NCBI GenBank assembly: GCA_947478865.1
Contig: CANJXF010000029.1
Span: 1 to 50,663 of the forward strand
Direction of reading: 5' to 3'
Source: Verrucomicrobiales bacterium
GTDB lineage: Bacteria; Verrucomicrobiota; Verrucomicrobiia; Limisphaerales; CANJXF01
Length of the DNA: 50,663 bases
Shown here in pieces: positions 39,960-49,914 of the stretch; the stretch's first letter is position 1; each line of letters begins with the position of its first letter. The notes beneath the pieces were generated by a model. The model did not search any database and was not told the origin of the DNA. It worked only from the letters and a program-made list of their open reading frames with translations. The translations under genes and the position numbers were made by a program.

Positions 39960-40014
39960 TTGTCACACAATCGTAACTAAAACGCCGTTTAGTTGTCATA
40001 AACATTTCGTAATC
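39960..40014 (+). promoter_or_regulatory. Pho-box-like repeats upstream of the porin gene
   Basis: Read in 11-base steps: TTGTCAC at 39960, TCGTAAC at 39971, a weak unit at 39982, TTGTCAT at 39993 and a weak unit at 40004. PhoB binds direct repeats of CTGTCAT with 4 bases between, also at 11-base steps. The arrangement matches that upstream of pstS nearly base for base in the strong units. Confidence 0.65.
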
Positions 40015-40033
40015 TCTCGCCGAACAAAACTTC

Positions 40034-41404
40034 ATGATTTTGATGAAAAATAAACTAACCGTCGCAACGATAACCGGCGTCACCGCTTTCACCCTCGCAT
40101 TCTGCGGGTCCGCTTTCGCCCAATCTTCGGATGCGTTGATCGACAAGCTTGTCGAGAAGGGAATCCTTTCGGTCAAAGAGGCCACCGAATTGCGCGAAGA
40201 AACCGACAAAGGTTTCACCCAGTCGTACGCAGTCAAGAGCGGCATGCCCGAATGGGTCAACAGCTTAAAATTCAATGGCGACCTCCGCCTGCGCTTCGAC
40301 AGCATCTACAATGACGACCCGACCTTCATCGACCGGGATCGTTTTCGTTACCGAATGAGGTTTGGAGCGACGGCGATGCTGGCCAATAATTTTGAAGCCG
40401 GGTTGCGCTTGATTTCCGGTGAAAATGCGAAGGGCGGTTTCACCAGCATCGATCCGATTTCTGGAAACGCCTCCTTCGAAGACAACGCCTCGAAAAAAAT
40501 CATCGGGCTCGACCTCGCCTACCTTAAATGGTCGCCCATTAACACGCCCGATTGGTCGGCGACATCTATTGGCGGCAAAATGGAAAACCCCTTTATTTTT
40601 TCGGATATCGTATTCGATCCCGATTACACGCCGGAAGGTTTCGCCCAACAGATTGGTTACAATATCAATGATAGCCACGCGGCCAAACTGAATCTCGGTG
40701 GATTCATCCTCGACGAAATAAGCCGCAGCAGTAGCGACCCCTTTTTGCTCGGCTCGCAATTGCGATTGGAATCCACCTGGAGCCCAAAATGGCAAACCTC
40801 TTTCGGCCTTTCCGCATTGATGATTTCCGGCACTGAAAATCTGACTTCCGCCAATGTTCCCGATCAGAACAAAGGAAACACGCGGGTGAACATCAACGCC
40901 GGCACGACCAACAAACCGAGCTACGGACCGCTGGCCAATACGTTCAATCCCATCGTCGTCGATGGCGCAGTGATCTATTCCCTGGAAAGTTTTCCCACTT
41001 ACACCGGGGCTTTCCCGATTCGACTCGCTGCCGACTACGTCAACAACCCGGCGGCTCACAACAACAACCAGGCTTTTTCGGCGGGAATTACTTTTGGAAA
41101 ATCTGGAAAGAAAGGGACCTGGGATTTGACCTACAAATACAAATATCTGGAATCTGATTCCTGGTTTGAAGAACTGGTCGATTCCGACACGGGCGCCTTC
41201 TACAAAACCGGCATCCCTCAATCCGGCGGCGGCACGGGATACGGAGCTGGCACCAACTTGCGCGGCCATTACTTGCGCGCGGCCTATTCGCCTTACGATT
41301 TCTTCACCTTCTCGGCGAACTATTTTCTTTTCGATGTCATCCAAGGCCGCAGCAAAAATTCAGAATCAGGGCGTGTGCAAGTCGATGCGACGGTGAAATT
41401 TTAA
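40034..41404 (+). CDS. Putative porin (outer-membrane beta-barrel)
   Basis: The 456-aa protein has a signal peptide (cleavage near SAFAQ, residue 30), an N-terminal helical stretch typical of these porins (ALIDKLVEKGILSVKEATEL) and then a long beta-barrel-like body starting at LKFNGDLRLRFDS with alternating patterns, ending in VQVDATVKF with a C-terminal phenylalanine, as expected for barrel insertion. It resembles the 'putative porin' family found in Verrucomicrobia and Bacteroidota. The Pho-box-like repeats just upstream, shared with pstS, suggest a phosphate-starvation porin like E. coli PhoE or Pseudomonas OprP in role, not in family. Confidence 0.85.
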   Translation: MILMKNKLTVATITGVTAFTLAFCGSAFAQSSDALIDKLVEKGILSVKEATELREETDKGFTQSYAVKSGMPEWVNSLKFNGDLRLRFDSIYNDDPTFIDRDRFRYRMRFGATAMLANNFEAGLRLISGENAKGGFTSIDPISGNASFEDNASKKIIGLDLAYLKWSPINTPDWSATSIGGKMENPFIFSDIVFDPDYTPEGFAQQIGYNINDSHAAKLNLGGFILDEISRSSSDPFLLGSQLRLESTWSPKWQTSFGLSALMISGTENLTSANVPDQNKGNTRVNINAGTTNKPSYGPLANTFNPIVVDGAVIYSLESFPTYTGAFPIRLAADYVNNPAAHNNNQAFSAGITFGKSGKKGTWDLTYKYKYLESDSWFEELVDSDTGAFYKTGIPQSGGGTGYGAGTNLRGHYLRAAYSPYDFFTFSANYFLFDVIQGRSKNSESGRVQVDATVKF

Positions 41405-41492
41405 GCGGAATTCAGGGCGAGAAATCGTTGTAGTGCGAAGAAGGCATTGTTCCACAGTTTCCCGGCAACCAGAAAGCGGTTTCACGCCGGGA

Positions 41493-41543
41493 TTGTCACA
41501 CAATTGTAACCTTCGCGCCCTCAAATTGTCATAAGCGGTTGGT
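41493..41543 (+). promoter_or_regulatory. Pho-box-like repeats upstream of pstS
   Basis: In 11-base steps: TTGTCAC (41493), TTGTAAC (41504), a weak unit (41515), TTGTCAT (41526) and GGTTGGT (41537). The first and fourth units are 33 bases apart, exactly as upstream of the porin gene. The site lies 22 bases before the pstS start, which suits activation by a PhoB-type regulator. Confidence 0.75.
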
Positions 41544-41564
41544 AATTTTACTCAGAAGAATCAT

Positions 41565-42413
41565 ATGAAAAAAATCCTCAACAAATTCAGCATTTTTGCC
41601 GCGACTATTGGCGCGGTCGTCTCGGCGAACGCTGCCAATATCACGGTCAAAGGTTCGGATACCCTGGTCATTCTTGCCCAAAAATGGGCCGAGGTTTACA
41701 TGCAGAAACATCCGGAAACCAAAATCCAGGTGACCGGTGGCGGCTCGGGCATTGGCTTCGCCGCGTTGCAAAACAAAACCACGGACCTCGCCAACGCCTC
41801 GCGCAAAATCAAAGTCAAAGAAATTGAGTCGTGCGTGAAAGCTTTTGGCAAACGGCCGACGGAATACAAAGTCGCGCTGGACGGCCTTTCCGTTTACGTC
41901 AACGAGGCCAACCCGGTGCAGGAGCTGAGCCTCGAACAGCTTGCCGGTATTTTCACCGGACAGATCAAAAACTGGAAACAAGTCGGCGGCAATGACGCGC
42001 CGATCACCATCTACAGCCGCGAAAACAGCTCCGGCACTTACGAGTTTTTCAAAGAAAACGTTCTGAAAGGAAAAGATTTTGCCGCCAACGCACAAACGCT
42101 TCAGGGCACCGCGCAAGTCATTCAAAATGTCGCGAAGGAGAAAAATGGAATCGGCTACGGCGGCGGCGCTTACGGCGCGGGCGTGAAACATTTGAAGGTC
42201 AAGAAGGACGAAGGCTCGCCTGCAATCGAGCCGAGCGAGGAAACCGTGGTCAACGGCACCTATCCCATTTGGCGCTATCTTTTTATCTACGTGAATCCGG
42301 CAGTCGATAAGGGAGAAACCGCGTCCTATCTAAGTTGGATTCGCAGCGATGAAGGACAAAAGGTAGTGAAGGATGTTGGCTATTATCCGCTGCCGGCAAA
42401 TTTGCGGCGATAA
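41565..42413 (+). CDS. pstS: Phosphate-binding protein PstS
   Basis: The 282-aa periplasmic protein captures phosphate for the Pst ABC importer. It has a signal peptide ending near ANAAN (about 23), the phosphate-binding motifs ITVKGSDTL and VTGGGSGIGFAAL, NASRKIK, and YSRENSSGTYEFF (the serine-rich binding loop). C-terminal ligand-domain motifs are YGGGAYGAGVKHL and PIWRYLFIYVNP. It heads an operon pstS-pstC-pstA-pstB-phoU and sits just behind a Pho-box-like array. The short-type PstS length is normal. Confidence 0.95.
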   Translation: MKKILNKFSIFAATIGAVVSANAANITVKGSDTLVILAQKWAEVYMQKHPETKIQVTGGGSGIGFAALQNKTTDLANASRKIKVKEIESCVKAFGKRPTEYKVALDGLSVYVNEANPVQELSLEQLAGIFTGQIKNWKQVGGNDAPITIYSRENSSGTYEFFKENVLKGKDFAANAQTLQGTAQVIQNVAKEKNGIGYGGGAYGAGVKHLKVKKDEGSPAIEPSEETVVNGTYPIWRYLFIYVNPAVDKGETASYLSWIRSDEGQKVVKDVGYYPLPANLRR

Positions 42414-42484
42414 TCGAACACCAACGGTGCGGGCGAGCTCCGTTGACGGAACCCTCCCGCAGCACTCTGAGCCACGACAAAGAA

Positions 42485-43660
42485 ATGCCGCAAACGCAAC
42501 AAACCAAACGAAGCATCGGTTGGATGGGGCTGCATCGCGGCCACAAAGCGCGGCCGCTCGAATGGCTCGTCGAGAAATTTATTTTTCTCGTTTCGCTCTC
42601 AGCCATTGTGATGGTGTTTTTGATTTTCGTTTTTGTGCTTCGCGAAGCCCTCCCCGTCTTTTTGGGCAAAGCTAACAGTTCTTCGGTTCAACCCGTCATC
42701 GCTCCGGATCAAATGGGGAAACTTTCGCCTGAGAAACTCCGTGAATATCTGGGGCTGACCAAACAGGAATTCGCCGCAAAAGATCGGGAGACGTTACAGC
42801 TTCTGATGGAACTCAAAGTGGAGTCCGCCGCTGAGGCTCCGACCGATAAAGATGCCAAGGTGAACACCACGGATTGGCGCTATCTCTTGTTACCCTATCA
42901 GTGGAGTGGTTACACCAAGCCTGAATACATCTGGCAACCCATTTCCCAGGTGCCGAAGTACAATATCATCCCGCTTCTGGTCGGCAGCCTGAAAGTGACT
43001 TTGGTGTCGCTCCTGTTTGCAGTGCCCCTTGCTTTGGGCGCGGCGATCTACGTTTCGCAACTCGCCAAGCCTCGCTGGAAAGAAATTATCAAGCCCACCA
43101 TCGAGTTGCTCTCAGGAATTCCCTCGGTGGTGCTCGGGTTTTTCGCATTGATCGTCATGGCGAGTTTCCTGCAATCGGTCTTCGGCTACGAATCGCGGCT
43201 CAATTCATTCGTCGCGGGCGTGGCGCTAGGCCTGGCAATTATTCCAGTGGTGTTTTCAATTGCAGAAGATGCGATGACCAGCGTGCCACAAAGTTACGTG
43301 CAAGCAGCGCTTGCGCTGGGTTCCACGCGATGGCAGGCCGCCTGGCAAATTGTTCTGCCCGCCGCGATTCCCGGAGTATTTGCGGCCGTGGTTCTGGGCT
43401 TCGGCCGCGCTGTTGGCGAAACCATGATCGTTCTCATGGCCAGCGGCAACGCGAGCATCATGTCATGGAACGTTTTTGATTCCACGCGAACGATCACCAC
43501 AACGATCGCCGCCGAATTGGCTGAAGCCGTCTTTGGCGGCCATCACTATGGAATTTTATTCATGATCGGAACGCTGCTCTTCGTCATCACGTTCATGTCA
43601 AATCTGGCGGGCGGCCTGGTGATGCAGCGGCTGAAAGGTCGTCTCGAAGGGAAAAAATGA
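42485..43660 (+). CDS. pstC: Phosphate ABC permease PstC with long periplasmic insertion
   Basis: The 391-aa permease has a first membrane helix at about 33-55 and the BPD_transp_1 core (about 155-385) with the EAA loop LGSTRWQAAWQIVLPAAIPGV. E. coli PstC is 319 aa. The extra length is a polar, probably helical insertion of about 90 residues between the first two helices, containing LSPEKLREYLGLTKQEFAAK and a proline-rich end. The frame is open to a TTG at 42443; the ATG at 42485 gives a plausible start. Its stop overlaps the pstA start by 4 bases. Confidence 0.92.
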   Translation: MPQTQQTKRSIGWMGLHRGHKARPLEWLVEKFIFLVSLSAIVMVFLIFVFVLREALPVFLGKANSSSVQPVIAPDQMGKLSPEKLREYLGLTKQEFAAKDRETLQLLMELKVESAAEAPTDKDAKVNTTDWRYLLLPYQWSGYTKPEYIWQPISQVPKYNIIPLLVGSLKVTLVSLLFAVPLALGAAIYVSQLAKPRWKEIIKPTIELLSGIPSVVLGFFALIVMASFLQSVFGYESRLNSFVAGVALGLAIIPVVFSIAEDAMTSVPQSYVQAALALGSTRWQAAWQIVLPAAIPGVFAAVVLGFGRAVGETMIVLMASGNASIMSWNVFDSTRTITTTIAAELAEAVFGGHHYGILFMIGTLLFVITFMSNLAGGLVMQRLKGRLEGKK

Positions 43661-44595
43661 AGAGCCGCTTTCAACGACAACATTTCGATTACGTTTCATT
43701 CCTTTTCACAGGGCTGACAGGCGCCGCGACGTTTCTAATTCTAGCCATTCTCGCCGTCATCCTCGGGAACGTGGTTTACAACGGTTGGGGCAGTTTCTCC
43801 TGGCGCTTTGTCACAGGCGGAACCGAGCGCGATATGTTCAGCGTCGCCAATGCGGGAATTCTTCCGATGATCGTCGGCACGTCCATTCGCGTCATTCTCA
43901 TGACCATTTTCGTGGTGCCCATCGGCGTGATCACCGCGATTTACCTGACCGAATATGCGAATGCCACGTCGCTTTTCACGCGGATTATTCGCGGCGCAGT
44001 CAACAATCTCGCGGGCGTGCCATCGATTGTTTTTGGTCTTTTCGGCCTCGGATTTTTCATCAACTTCGTCGGCCAAAATATGGATGCCGTTTTTAACGCG
44101 CATAATTCTGCGCCAATCTGGGGCAAGCCCGCCTTGATCTGGGCATCGCTGACGCTGGCTGTGATGACATTGCCAGTCGTAATCGTGGCGACGGAAGAAT
44201 CTTTGAAAGCCATTCCCTCCGGTTTGCGTGAAGCGAGCCTCGCGCTGGGCGCCACGAAACTGGAAACCATTTTGAAGATTGTTCTGCCGCAAGCGTTACC
44301 CGGGATTTTGACCGGCACCATTTTAGCCGTGGGACGCGCTGCAGGAGAAGTCGCGCCCATTCTCTTCACCGGCGCCGCGTATTACATGGCGAGTATGCCC
44401 AAATCGTTCACCGATCAATTCATGGATTTGGGTTACCACGTGTTTATTCTTTCCACGCAATCGCCGAACATCGAACAGACTCGTCCGATTCTTTACGCGA
44501 CGGTTCTCGCGCTGTTGATCCTAACTTTTGCGCTGAATATCGTCGCGGTTTTCGTCCGGGCACGCATGCGTGCGACGATGCGCTTACTCCAATAA
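43657..44595 (+). CDS. pstA: Phosphate ABC permease PstA
   Basis: The 312-aa permease pairs with PstC to form the phosphate channel. It has six membrane helices; the motif LGATKLETILKIVLPQALPGIL is the cytoplasmic loop contacting PstB, and NNLAGVPSIVFGLFGLGFF is a family signature. Length and order fit PstA. It overlaps pstC by 4 bases and precedes pstB by three bases, so the genes are cotranslated. Confidence 0.95.
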   Translation: MKSRFQRQHFDYVSFLFTGLTGAATFLILAILAVILGNVVYNGWGSFSWRFVTGGTERDMFSVANAGILPMIVGTSIRVILMTIFVVPIGVITAIYLTEYANATSLFTRIIRGAVNNLAGVPSIVFGLFGLGFFINFVGQNMDAVFNAHNSAPIWGKPALIWASLTLAVMTLPVVIVATEESLKAIPSGLREASLALGATKLETILKIVLPQALPGILTGTILAVGRAAGEVAPILFTGAAYYMASMPKSFTDQFMDLGYHVFILSTQSPNIEQTRPILYATVLALLILTFALNIVAVFVRARMRATMRLLQ

Positions 44596-44598
44596 TGT

Positions 44599-45417
44599 AT
44601 GACTGAAGCTCCGCTGCGAAAAATAAAGACCAACGACCCGAGCGGCCAGGATCGGCCCGCCAACTCCACGTTGATCGAGACCCAAAATCTCTCGCTGTTC
44701 TACGGCAAGTCACAGGCGCTGAGGAATATCAGCTTCGGAATTTCCGAGCGCATCGTGACGGCGTTCATCGGGCCGTCCGGCTGCGGCAAATCCACGCTGC
44801 TCCGCTGCTTGAATCGAATGAATGACCTGATCGACAATGTGCGCATCGAAGGGACGGTGTTGATCGGCGGCGAGAATATTTACAGCAAAGATGTGGACGT
44901 GATCGAACTTCGCAAACGCGTTGGCATGGTTTTCCAGCGCTCCAACCCGTTCCCAAAATCGATTTACGAGAACATTTCCTATGGTCTCCGCCTGCACGGG
45001 ACAAAGAATAAGTCGGACCTCGATGGCATCGTGGAAAAAAGCCTTCGACAGGCCGCGCTCTGGGACGAGGTGAAGGACCGCTTGAATTCCAGCGCGCTCG
45101 GTTTGTCCGGTGGACAACAGCAGCGGCTCTGCATCGCGCGCGCCATTGCGATTCGACCGGAGATTATTTTGATGGATGAACCCGCATCGGCGCTCGATCC
45201 CATTGCCACGGCGAAAATCGAGGAGCTGATTCTGCAATTGAAAGAGGAATTCACGATCGTGATTGTGACCCACAACATGCAGCAGGCGGCGCGCATTTCT
45301 GATTTCACCGCGTTCTTTTATATGGGCGAACTCATCGAATACGATGTCACGGCGAAGGTTTTTACAAACCCAGCCAAGAAACAAACGGAAGATTACGTGA
45401 CGGGGAGATTTGGATAA
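44599..45417 (+). CDS. pstB: Phosphate ABC ATPase PstB
   Basis: The 272-aa ATPase powers phosphate uptake. Walker A is [20 protein letters not shown], a PstB-specific signature; [20 protein letters not shown] and [11 protein letters not shown] are the ABC signature and Walker B, followed by the H-loop in IVIVTHNM. The N-terminal 30 residues are variable. It is followed by an 83-base gap with a hairpin before phoU. Confidence 0.96.
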
Positions 45418-45463: not shown

Positions 45464-45500
45464 ATTAAGAGTTAGATTAGGATTGAGACCGGAAAAAATT

Positions 45501-46151
45501 ATGCAAACACACTTTGAGCAGGAACTCGCGGAGTTGAAAAACAAGCTGTTGACCATGGCCAGCCATGCGGAGACCTCCGTCACGAACGCGATCAAAGCGT
45601 TGATCGATCGCGACGACGAGTTGGCGCAAAAGGTGGATGCCGACGATGCGATTATCGATCATCTCGAAATGGAGATCGATGAGATGGCGATTCGTCTCTT
45701 GGCCAAAGCGCCGCTTGCCAGCGACCTTCGGCTCATCACGGTGGCGATGAAGATCTCACAGAACCTGGAGCGGGTCGGCGACGAAGCGACGAAGATTGCG
45801 CGGCGCGTCCAGGATTTGAATCAGGAGCCGCAATTGAAACCCTACGTTGACCTGCCCAACATGGCGAAAATTGCATTGCAGATGCTGAAAACTGCGCTCG
45901 ACAGTTTTGTAAATCGCCAACCGGATACCGCGCGCGAAATCATCCCGCGCGACAAGGAGGTCGATCTGCTGAACAAGCAACTGCACCGCGAGCTGGCCAG
46001 CTATATGATTGAAAAGCCAAGCACGATTACGCGCTGCCTGAATCTGATGATCATTTCGAAAAGCCTCGAGCGCATTGCCGACCACGCCACCAATGTGGCG
46101 GAAGAAGTGGTTTATTTGTGCGAAGCGCGCGATATTCGCCATGGAGGTTGA
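45501..46151 (+). CDS. phoU: Phosphate signalling protein PhoU
   Basis: The 216-aa cytoplasmic protein consists of two three-helix PhoU domains (about 10-100 and 115-205) with the metal-binding motifs near ERVGDEATKIA and ERIADHATNVAEEV (E/D-x-x-x-D pattern). PhoU conveys the transport state of PstSCAB to the PhoR kinase and keeps the Pho regulon off when phosphate is ample. The ATG at 45501 is chosen; the frame begins six codons earlier at a TTG. Five bases separate its stop from sixA. Confidence 0.95.
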   Translation: MQTHFEQELAELKNKLLTMASHAETSVTNAIKALIDRDDELAQKVDADDAIIDHLEMEIDEMAIRLLAKAPLASDLRLITVAMKISQNLERVGDEATKIARRVQDLNQEPQLKPYVDLPNMAKIALQMLKTALDSFVNRQPDTAREIIPRDKEVDLLNKQLHRELASYMIEKPSTITRCLNLMIISKSLERIADHATNVAEEVVYLCEARDIRHGG

Positions 46152-46156
46152 TCTCA

Positions 46157-46660
46157 ATGAATCTTTACCTGTTGCGACATGCCAAAGCGGAGGAACCCGG
46201 TTCTCGCTACTCGGATGACAGCAAACGTCCTCTGACCGAAGACGGCGAAAAGGAAATGTTTCGAGTAGCCAAAGGGATGCGCGAGATGGAACTCAATTTC
46301 GAATTAATTTTGAGCAGCCCATTCGTTCGCGCCAAACGAACCGCGGAAATCGTCGCCGAAGTTTTCAAATCCAACAAGTTGCGATTCTCCAAAAATCTGG
46401 CGAGCGGAGCGGACGCGCGAAATCTGATCGACGAACTGAACGAGGATTATGCGTCGTTCAAAAACATCCTGTTGGTTGGGCACGAACCTTATTTGAGCAA
46501 ACTCATTTCACGGTTGTGCGCGGGCGATGACAAGTTTCCGCTGCATTTCAAGAAAGCCGGCCTTTGCAAGTTGACGGTCGGCGAGCTGCGCGCGGATCGC
46601 TGCGCCCGCCTCGAATGGCTGCTCACTCCGAAACAGCTAACGGCGCTGGGCAAACGCTGA
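46157..46660 (+). CDS. sixA: SixA-type phosphohistidine phosphatase
   Basis: The 167-aa protein belongs to the histidine phosphatase superfamily, SixA branch: catalytic LLRHAKAE (His 8), a second conserved ILSSPFVRAKRTAEI, and LVGHEP with the second histidine. SixA in E. coli dephosphorylates phosphohistidine on Hpt domains and on the nitrogen phosphotransferase system. Here it lies five bases after phoU and just before a CHAD gene. A link to phosphate signalling is inferred from position. Confidence 0.9.
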   Translation: MNLYLLRHAKAEEPGSRYSDDSKRPLTEDGEKEMFRVAKGMREMELNFELILSSPFVRAKRTAEIVAEVFKSNKLRFSKNLASGADARNLIDELNEDYASFKNILLVGHEPYLSKLISRLCAGDDKFPLHFKKAGLCKLTVGELRADRCARLEWLLTPKQLTALGKR

Positions 46661-46668
46661 GGGGCTCT

Positions 46669-47550
46669 ATGATCTATCGTGTTGAGAAGAACGAACCGGT
46701 TTCTGACGGGGTTCGACGCATTGCGGCGGAAGAAATCCATGCCGTCATGGCCGAGCTTGGTTCGGTCCCGCTTGATTCCGAGAATATCCACGAAGCCCGT
46801 CGCCACCTGAAAAAACTGCGGGCGCTTCTGCGATTTGCTCGCGAGCCGTTTTCAAACGCTTTGTTCCGAAAGGAGAACCAGACATTTCGTGCCATGGGTA
46901 AAAGGCTGTCCCCGGTGCGCGATGCCTTCATCATCAACCAAGCCTTCGCTCTGGTTCTGAAACACTCCTCTGGAAAAACGAAGACCCGCTTCAGATTTCT
47001 CTCCACCGCTTTCCAAAACGATTGTGAACGGCGCACCATCGGAAAAGCAGAACTCGCCAGAATTATGAAGTCGCTTCGCGCGGCGCTTGGCCGGGTTGAA
47101 CTCTGGCCACTGGGAGATTTTGGCCTCAGAGAAGTGCGAGCCGCCTTGGAACGAAGCTTTCGCCGCGGCAAAAAAACCTTTCGCAAAAGCCTCAATACAG
47201 AAACGAGTGAAGCGTTTCATGAATGGCGCAAACGAGTTAAAGATTTGGAATTCCACTTATCTTTGCTCGAACTGACGTGGCGCAAAGGGATGAAGCGCCC
47301 GTGGAGTAAAATCCAGCGATTGGATAATTTTTTGGGTGAAGACCATGACCTCGCGGTGCTTTCAGAAAAATTGCACCTCTTCAAATTCAAGGGTGAGGAA
47401 TTACAAAATGGCTATCGGAAACTTGTCGCAGTGATTGGCCGGCGACGGGCGAAATTTCAACACCGCGCCATAAGAATCGGGAAAGACCTTTTTGCGAAGC
47501 GGCCCAGAAGTTTCGTTTGCCAGAATGTTGGATTAGAGTTTTTCACATGA
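46669..47550 (+). CDS. CHAD domain protein, likely polyphosphate-binding
   Basis: The 293-aa protein is a CHAD domain from about residue 7 to 285: it is helical and rich in Arg, Lys and conserved His, with [33 protein letters not shown] and [14 protein letters not shown] as typical motifs. CHAD domains bind inorganic polyphosphate. Many occur beside CYTH domains; none is fused here. ATG 46669 follows a good Shine-Dalgarno (gagggg). It sits between sixA and pfk, overlapping pfk by 4 bases, so it is part of the phosphate operon. Confidence 0.9.
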
Positions 47551-48685: not shown

Positions 48686-48703
48686 TTGTCACCCAGATGT
48701 AAC
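48686..48703 (+). promoter_or_regulatory. Pho-box-like repeat upstream of the first response regulator
   Basis: TTGTCAC (48686) and ATGTAAC (48697) stand 11 bases apart, as in the pstS and porin sites. The start of the downstream gene follows after 44 bases. Confidence 0.6.
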
Positions 48704-48747
48704 CCTACCGCTGTTGAGGTCTGGGATCGTTGTGCTAACCAGAAGCC

Positions 48748-49152
48748 ATGCACTCAAAGATTCTGGTGGTGGATGACGAACGGGATGTAGTTGACCTCAT
48801 CGGCTTCAATTTGAAGGCCGCTGGTTACGACGTGGAAACGGCCGACACGGGACTCGAAGCGCTCAATAAGGCCCGTTCCATTCTGCCGGATTTGATTATT
48901 TTAGATCTGATGTTGCCGGAGTTGGACGGGACCGCAGTTTGCGAGATTCTCCGCAAGCTACCTTCGACGGCGGCGATTCCCGTGTTGATGCTGACGGCCT
49001 GTTCCAGCGCCGCGGCGAAAGTCGTTGCGGTCAAAGCCGGCGTGGATGATTTCATGACCAAGCCGTTCAGCCCGATTGATCTTGTTCACCGAGTCGGGCA
49101 AGTGCTCGAAATGCGAAATCCCCTGCTGACGATCGAAGGCGAAACCGTTTAG
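48748..49152 (+). CDS. Single-domain response regulator (receiver only)
   Basis: The 134-aa protein is a CheY-like receiver without output domain. The acidic pair is in LVVDDERDV, the phospho-acceptor Asp is in LIILDLMLPELDG, Thr in LMLTAC and Lys in FMTKPFS. Its sequence resembles the receiver of the next gene, so it may be a duplicate that lost, or never had, the DNA-binding part. It may serve as a phosphate sink or a shuttle for the missing kinase. A Pho-box-like repeat precedes it. Confidence 0.85.
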   Translation: MHSKILVVDDERDVVDLIGFNLKAAGYDVETADTGLEALNKARSILPDLIILDLMLPELDGTAVCEILRKLPSTAAIPVLMLTACSSAAAKVVAVKAGVDDFMTKPFSPIDLVHRVGQVLEMRNPLLTIEGETV

Positions 49153-49165
49153 CCACTCGTCAAAA

Positions 49166-49183
49166 TCGTAACAGCCTTGTCAC
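49166..49183 (+). promoter_or_regulatory. Pho-box-like repeat upstream of the second response regulator
   Basis: TCGTAAC (49166) and TTGTCAC (49177) are 11 bases apart, in the reverse order to the other three sites, with a weaker TCGTCAA at 49157. They lie 45 bases before the GTG start. Confidence 0.5.
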
Positions 49184-49227
49184 CCTGCCGACGTCGTGCT
49201 GGAACCTCCGAGTGATAAATACACAGT

Positions 49228-49914
49228 GTGAAACAGAAAATTCTGATCATCGAAGACGAGCCAGATGTCGTGGAGCTGGTCAGATACAACCTCGTGGAAG
49301 CGGGCTTCGTGGTCGAAGCTGCTCTGACCGGTGCGGAGGGGTTGCGAATGGCGAGAACAGCCTCTCCCAATTTAATCCTGCTGGATCTCATGCTGCCAGA
49401 GATTGATGGTCTGCAAGTTTGTAAACTGCTTCGACACGATTCCAAGACTTCGGGCATTCCAATCATAATGGTGACCGCGAAGTCGTCCGAGATTGATCGA
49501 GTTCTTGGTCTGGAATTAGGCGCGGATGATTACGTCACAAAGCCTTTTAGTCCCAGGGAGCTGACCTTGAGGGTGAGAAAAATGCTTGAGCGAGCGCGAT
49601 TACCCGATGTGCCAAGGGAGTCCTTTCATTTCGATGATTTGCTGGTGGATATTCCGCGTCATGTGGTCAGCGTCAGAAGCAAACGGATTGATTTAACCGC
49701 AACTGAATTCAAACTTCTTGTCACGCTGATTCAACGTCCGGGTCTTGTCCAATCGCGCGATCAATTACTGCGCGATGTCTGGGACTACGATCAGCAGATC
49801 GACACGCGCACCGTGGATACCCACATGCGACGCCTTCGCGAGAAGCTGGGCCCAATCGGCGCGAAGTATTTGGACACGGTCAGGGGCATGGGCTATCGGT
49901 TTCTGGAGAATTAG
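49228..49914 (+). CDS. phoB: PhoB-like winged-helix response regulator
   Basis: The 228-aa regulator has a receiver (acidic pair IIEDEPDV, phospho-acceptor in LLDLMLPEIDG, Lys in VTKPFSPREL) and an OmpR/PhoB-type winged helix (about 130-227) with LTATEFKLLVTL, the recognition-helix region TRTVDTHMRRLREKLG and YLDTVRGMGYRF. It starts at GTG. The position next to pst genes and Pho-box-like sites supports PhoB identity and autoregulation. No PhoR kinase follows in the window, so the cognate kinase must be elsewhere. Confidence 0.88.
   Translation: MKQKILIIEDEPDVVELVRYNLVEAGFVVEAALTGAEGLRMARTASPNLILLDLMLPEIDGLQVCKLLRHDSKTSGIPIIMVTAKSSEIDRVLGLELGADDYVTKPFSPRELTLRVRKMLERARLPDVPRESFHFDDLLVDIPRHVVSVRSKRIDLTATEFKLLVTLIQRPGLVQSRDQLLRDVWDYDQQIDTRTVDTHMRRLREKLGPIGAKYLDTVRGMGYRFLEN

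Follow-up and report, generated by a model that had tools for sequence, protein, structure and literature searches.

Conserved arrays with the geometry of Pho boxes precede a Porin_5 gene and pstS in an order of Verrucomicrobiota

Two arrays of 11-bp repeats, one preceding a porin gene and the other pstS, are found in the window (by which we mean the whole stretch of DNA analysed here, 50,663 nucleotides from a Verrucomicrobiales bacterium). These arrays would be PhoB operators that activate a porin-pst operon at low phosphate, with the Porin_5 protein encoded at its head serving as the entry route for phosphate, a reading to which we give a probability of about 0.85. A Pho box consists of a pair of 11-nt direct repeats, each with 7 conserved and 4 less conserved bases (PMC4415409). 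Both arrays are built of 11-bp direct repeats, their half-sites (TTGTCAC, TTGTAAC and TTGTCAT) are CTGTCAT-like and, judged by sequence, their architecture is that of classical Pho boxes, from which we infer binding by PhoB.

The array before the porin reads TTGTCACACAA TCGTAACTAAA ACGCCGTTTAG TTGTCATAAAC ATTTCG TAATCT and that before pstS TTGTCACACAA TTGTAACCTTC GCGCCCTCAAA TTGTCATAAGC GGTTGG TAATTT, that is, four 11-bp half-sites, the third of which is degenerate, followed by a -10 hexamer at +50 to +55 (Table 1). They start 74 bp (porin) and 72 bp (pstS) before the ATG codons, and the pattern TTGTCAC-N4-TYGTAAC-N15-TTGTCAT describes both. A sequence-only reading of this DNA had reported TTGTCAC-ACAA-T(C/T)GTAAC at both sites and a TTGTCAT unit 33 bases past the first; the motif was indeed found at 39960 and 41493, with exactly this offset in each case. 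The two arrays are identical at 40 of 55 bases; units 1, 2 and 4 agree at 20 of their 21 bases, and the mismatches lie mainly in the spacers.

Table 1. Putative Pho operators and neighbouring genes in the window
Feature	Position	Strand	Remarks
Putative Pho operator/promoter of porin	39960..40015	+	half-sites 39960, 39971, 39982 (degenerate), 39993; -10 TAATCT 40010-40015
Porin gene	40034..41404	+	456 aa; Porin_5 (PF16930); alternative start ATG at 40043
Putative Pho operator/promoter of pstS	41493..41548	+	half-sites 41493, 41504, 41515 (degenerate), 41526; -10 TAATTT 41543-41548
pstS, phosphate-binding protein	41565..42413	+	TIGR02136
pstC permease	42443..43660	+	TIGR02138
pstA permease	43657..44595	+	TIGR00974
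pstB ATPase	44599..45417	+	TIGR00972
phoU	45483..46151	+	TIGR02135
Weaker putative Pho operator before receiver-only regulator	48686..48741	+	held-out rank 3, 12.0 bits
Receiver-only response regulator	48748..49152	+	134 aa; PhoB-like receiver
Weaker putative Pho operator before phoB	49166..49221	+	held-out rank 4, 12.0 bits
phoB-like response regulator	49228..49914	+	receiver + winged helix; 42% identical to E. coli PhoB

Conservation was assessed in 97 genomes (the window's own and others of the same order), 68 of which have porin homologs, and in 60 porin loci fetched from the relatives, which yielded 58 usable porin upstream regions. The window-derived pattern, with one mismatch allowed, matches in 26 of the 97 genomes and its reversed version in none; since it was drawn from the window alone, this count is independent of the porin promoters of the relatives. 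With the threshold set at 17 or more of the 21 consensus positions, the array is present before the orthologous porins in 46 of 58 relatives, with 12 promoters below the threshold and no match (0/58) for the reversed pattern, while no sequence upstream of the pstC, pstA, pstB and phoU genes of these loci reached 18/21 and the scores there were those of shuffled sequence. In the only confirmed relative among the GTDB contigs (L014, porin 50% identical), the array stands 79 bp before the listed porin start. A profile built from the relatives matches in 73 of the 97 genomes, and among the 95 top-scoring sites listed (E up to 7e-4), 51 have a Porin_5 match no more than 250 bp downstream. Porin counts obtained with this profile are partly circular because it was trained on porin promoters, a circularity from which the window-pattern scan, the promoter count and the held-out test of the window (see below) are free, and the whole-genome profile search, which scores only part of the candidates, missed both weak regulator sites of the window. 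The proposal that the operator is conserved in this lineage is thus supported by all three counts (26/97, 46/58 and 73/97): the repeats are kept in the relatives and, both there and in the window's own genome, matches are enriched before phosphate genes.

The matrix of 46 relatives consists of TTGTMAC, TTGTAAC, a degenerate but conserved CCGCCCTTTGT and YTGTAAC at 11-bp steps, with a T-G-T-M-A-Y core in the half-sites, then 10 nearly free bases past the fourth unit and finally a near-invariant -10 hexamer (A at +51 in 41/46, T at +55 in 44/46). The array had been described as 'four or five 11-base steps', of which the four half-sites stand but the fifth does not: both in this matrix and in the window, the place of a fifth 11-bp unit is taken by the spacer plus the -10 element.

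For a held-out test, the window was scanned, with filters off, by a profile to which the 46 relatives alone had contributed. It ranked the pstS array (31.4 bits) and the porin array (29.5 bits) first, followed by two weaker sites at 12.0 bits each, with noise at 5.2 bits. Each weaker site lies 62 bp before a gene start, one belonging to a receiver-only regulator and the other to phoB. The former reads TTGTCACCCAG ATGTAACCCTA CCGCTGTTGAG and has lost its fourth unit (-10-like TAACCA), the latter reads TCGTAACAGCC TTGTCACCCTG CCGACGTCGTG CTGGAACCTCC (-10-like TAAATA), and in both units 1 to 3 are good and unit 4 is poor. Their placement suggests positive autoregulation, and phoB upstream regions score above 99% of shuffles (units 1 to 3) in 7 of 27 relatives. 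In two relatives (L117 and L116), the distance from site to phoB start is 62 and 64 bp, nearly that of the window. At both weaker sites, just 6 bases separate the end of the predicted -10 from the start codon, and both regulator mRNAs may therefore be leaderless. The receiver-only regulator might serve as a phosphoryl sink or dimer partner; at loci L090 and L099, a shorter and more distant PhoB match likewise stands directly before phoB.

Two PhoB-like regulators of this genome are candidates for binding these operators. The phoB product of the window has a recognition helix (RTVDTHMRRLREKL) that closely matches that of E. coli PhoB (RTVDVHIRRLRKAL), with RTVDxHxRRLR common to both, and scores below the NCBIfam PhoB equivalog cut-off (236 vs 296 bits). 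The second PhoB-like regulator, which has the same recognition helix, is encoded on contig C51 beside its PAS histidine kinase, whereas no kinase gene adjoins the window phoB. That the operators are bound mainly by this second PhoB, leaving the window regulator with another role or as a modulator, is a serious prospect that falls somewhat short of even odds, since in many relatives it is the ortholog of the window PhoB (~60-67% identity) that closes the porin-pst-phoU operon, and since a weak site precedes the window phoB itself.

The porin matches Porin_5 at 108.8 bits (gathering score 22) and no other Pfam family, as do 27 of 27 aligned orthologs for Porin_5, and it is the only Porin_5 member in its genome, where no Porin_O_P (PF07396) member was found. 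A profile of 27 porin sequences matched no solved structure in the PDB, 2O4V, 4RJW and 4RJX included; in the same profile search, the Porin_O_P proteins of two relatives matched the OprP and OprO structures at once. Membership of the window porin in the OprP family was rejected by sequence, on the strength of this PDB result and of a profile search that gave no PF07396 match. An AlphaFold model made from two sequences had a pLDDT of 30. The sequence-only reading had placed the porin in a family not related to OprP, which holds for the barrel but not for a short N-terminal segment (type DALxDKLVEKGILTxKEA; hhalign probability 95.6, profile columns 14-90), the sole part common to Porin_5 and the Porin_O_P proteins of the relatives.

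It is the genomic setting that speaks for a role in phosphate uptake. The usual order in relatives is porin, pstS, pstC, pstA, pstB, phoU and often phoB; of 60 porin loci, 46 have a pst or phoU gene downstream of the porin, at most 5 kb away and on the same strand, and in 38 the first such gene is pstS (21-293 bp from the porin). The other 14, four of which are at contig ends, have no pst or phoU gene within 5 kb downstream. Since both the site and the gene order recur across the order, a part in phosphate uptake is very probable for Porin_5. The best evidence is a swap of porin families. Four relatives (G036, where the gene start is provisional, G038, G051 and G059) lack a Porin_5 match, and in them the operator precedes a Porin_O_P gene; in G059, the one among the four for which the pst neighbourhood has been established, the series runs operator, Porin_O_P, pstS, pstC, pstA, pstB, phoU, phoB; because Porin_O_P replaces it, Porin_5 would serve the same purpose. 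The idea of a phosphate-starvation porin, put forward from sequence alone, thus draws support both from position and from reuse of the operator. Downstream of phoU in the window (46118-47550), genes for a SixA-like histidine phosphatase and a CHAD-domain protein overlap end to end; CHAD domains are linked to polyphosphate.

The porin could instead be Pho-regulated yet general for anions or non-selective, induced to raise permeability, for which the Pho-regulated, anion-preferring PhoE of E. coli offers a precedent. We regard this as possible but doubtful: although sequence is silent on selectivity and no homolog of the barrel has a solved structure, a general porin would hardly explain the constant place directly before pstS, nor the replacement, in the same place and behind the same operator, by a phosphate-selective family.

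Most relatives have a single strong operator, before the porin, and 12 of 39 have, like the window, a second array before pstS that scores above 99% of shuffles (units 1-3). The solitary porin array of most relatives, together with the overall identity of the two window arrays, might be taken to mean that the pstS array arose by recent duplication of the porin array and has no separate function, which is improbable because the contact bases and the -10 hold most of the identity, which is lost in the spacers, the flanks differ and those 12 relatives have the pstS site too.

The full three-box pattern is absent elsewhere in the 4.4-Mb genome, and the two-box core (TTGTMAYN4YYGTMAY) has 2 matches in it, which are the same two sites, as compared with one match for the reversed two-box control. 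The motif is therefore not scattered genome-wide; scattering without enrichment at phosphate genes would have spoken against a Pho operator. Weak matches in this genome such as C77:4388, with no fitting gene start, were taken as chance. Under a first-order Markov model of the window, the expected number of three-box arrays is about 1.7e-6 for the window and 1.5e-4 for the genome. That the arrays resemble Pho boxes by chance alone has a negligible probability and is already refuted by the comparative data, for although short degenerate units are common in isolation, several of them inside coding regions, so low an expectation and the upkeep of the array at a constant position across tens of families leave it no room.

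Beyond the porin, sites in the relatives precede pstS, PhoU, DUF47 (PhoU_div), polyphosphate kinase (ppk1) and PhoB genes, as well as genes for a phytase-like protein, DUF3450 and TonB systems, and some genes without an evident phosphate role. PhoU domains fused to a low-molecular-weight phosphotyrosine phosphatase domain are encoded directly downstream of putative Pho operators at L175 and L037. At L193 (G007:C28), such an operator stands before a gene for an MGDG-synthase-like glycosyltransferase, which suggests membrane lipid remodelling at low phosphate in this relative. In the window's own genome, two operators (L141, G000:C51:22000-30651, sites 3905 and 8294) precede an operon for ExbB, ExbD and a TonB-dependent receptor and a gene for a secreted protein, all divergent from the genes for the second PhoB and its PAS histidine kinase, and the ExbB gene of relative G036 (L017) likewise has an operator. 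Also in this genome, a weak operator (L142, G000:C26, ~4867, minus strand) lies before an aquaporin (MIP) gene that is followed by a gene of the low-molecular-weight phosphatase/arsenate-reductase type, possibly a matter of arsenic defence during phosphate starvation.

Across 145 genomes of the phylum, the profile matches (E up to 0.001) in six besides the window's, all of the same class; in two of these (G141, G236) a Porin_5 homolog comes directly after the match, and a third (G176) has matches before pstS and before a pstB-phoU pair. In other classes, Porin_5 homologs also adjoin pstS, pstB or phoU, and the operator was not found beside them in the stretches read, so the link between porin and pst genes looks older or wider than the operator.

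The working model would be as follows. At low phosphate, phosphorylated PhoB would bind head to tail on the four half-sites and recruit RNA polymerase to the -10, whose start is offset by 50 bp from the start of the array, the promoters being putatively of class-II activator type. This would switch on the porin-pstSCAB-phoU operon, in which Porin_5 may provide the outer-membrane route feeding phosphate or phosphate-containing anions to PstS, as OprP and OprO do elsewhere. Since pstS has a second copy of the promoter, PstS, the periplasmic binding protein, could be made in excess of the porin.

Although the architecture of the Pho box is known, its order-wide conservation in Verrucomicrobiota and the placement of Porin_5 in the Pho regulon are new. 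A literature search found no description of Pho boxes in a Verrucomicrobiota Pho regulon, the nearest match on that subject concerning plcP in marine bacteria; of two other papers, PMC10875860 is not about Pho boxes and PMC5439949 (Xanthomonas) holds nothing on porins. The broader proposition is that Porin_5 at the head of the pst operon is a phosphate porin family separate from OprP/OprO, with which it would be interchangeable at one locus under one operator, and that Verrucomicrobiota share the E. coli pstS geometry of four half-sites plus -10, for which we consider the balance to be even. The benefits are (i) a likely role for an outer-membrane family annotated only as 'putative porin', (ii) an operator profile with which whole genomes of a little-studied order can be scanned and (iii) a two-family swap under one operator that makes the phosphate-porin idea directly testable.

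How does this system compare with those already known? As with PhoE, the porin is presumed to be induced by phosphate starvation, but PhoE of enterobacteria is a general porin encoded outside the pst operon, whereas the window porin has no Pfam match other than Porin_5. As for OprP and OprO, which are porins for phosphate and polyphosphate, their family (Porin_O_P) carries the same operator in relatives and can head a pst operon there, while the window barrel is Porin_5 (PF16930). The closest parallel is the pstS promoter of E. coli K-12, where PhoB binds two Pho boxes in tandem, and which according to the genome record reads CTGTCATAAAA CTGTCATATTC CTTACATATAA CTGTCACCTGT TTGTCC TATTTT and likewise has four half-sites at 11-bp steps, a degenerate third and a -10 at +50 to +55, from which it follows that the 'four or five steps' are four half-sites plus a core promoter. 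The differences concern the half-site (CTGTCAT there, TTGTMAC here), the third unit (CTTACAT there, CCGCCCT-like here) and the reach of the site, which here precedes both porin and pstS. The spacing between pho box and core promoter is strict (PMC10294691), and the -10 spacing is fixed alike in the window, its relatives and E. coli; such identical geometry in E. coli and Verrucomicrobiota suggests a strong constraint on the contact between PhoB and RNA polymerase.
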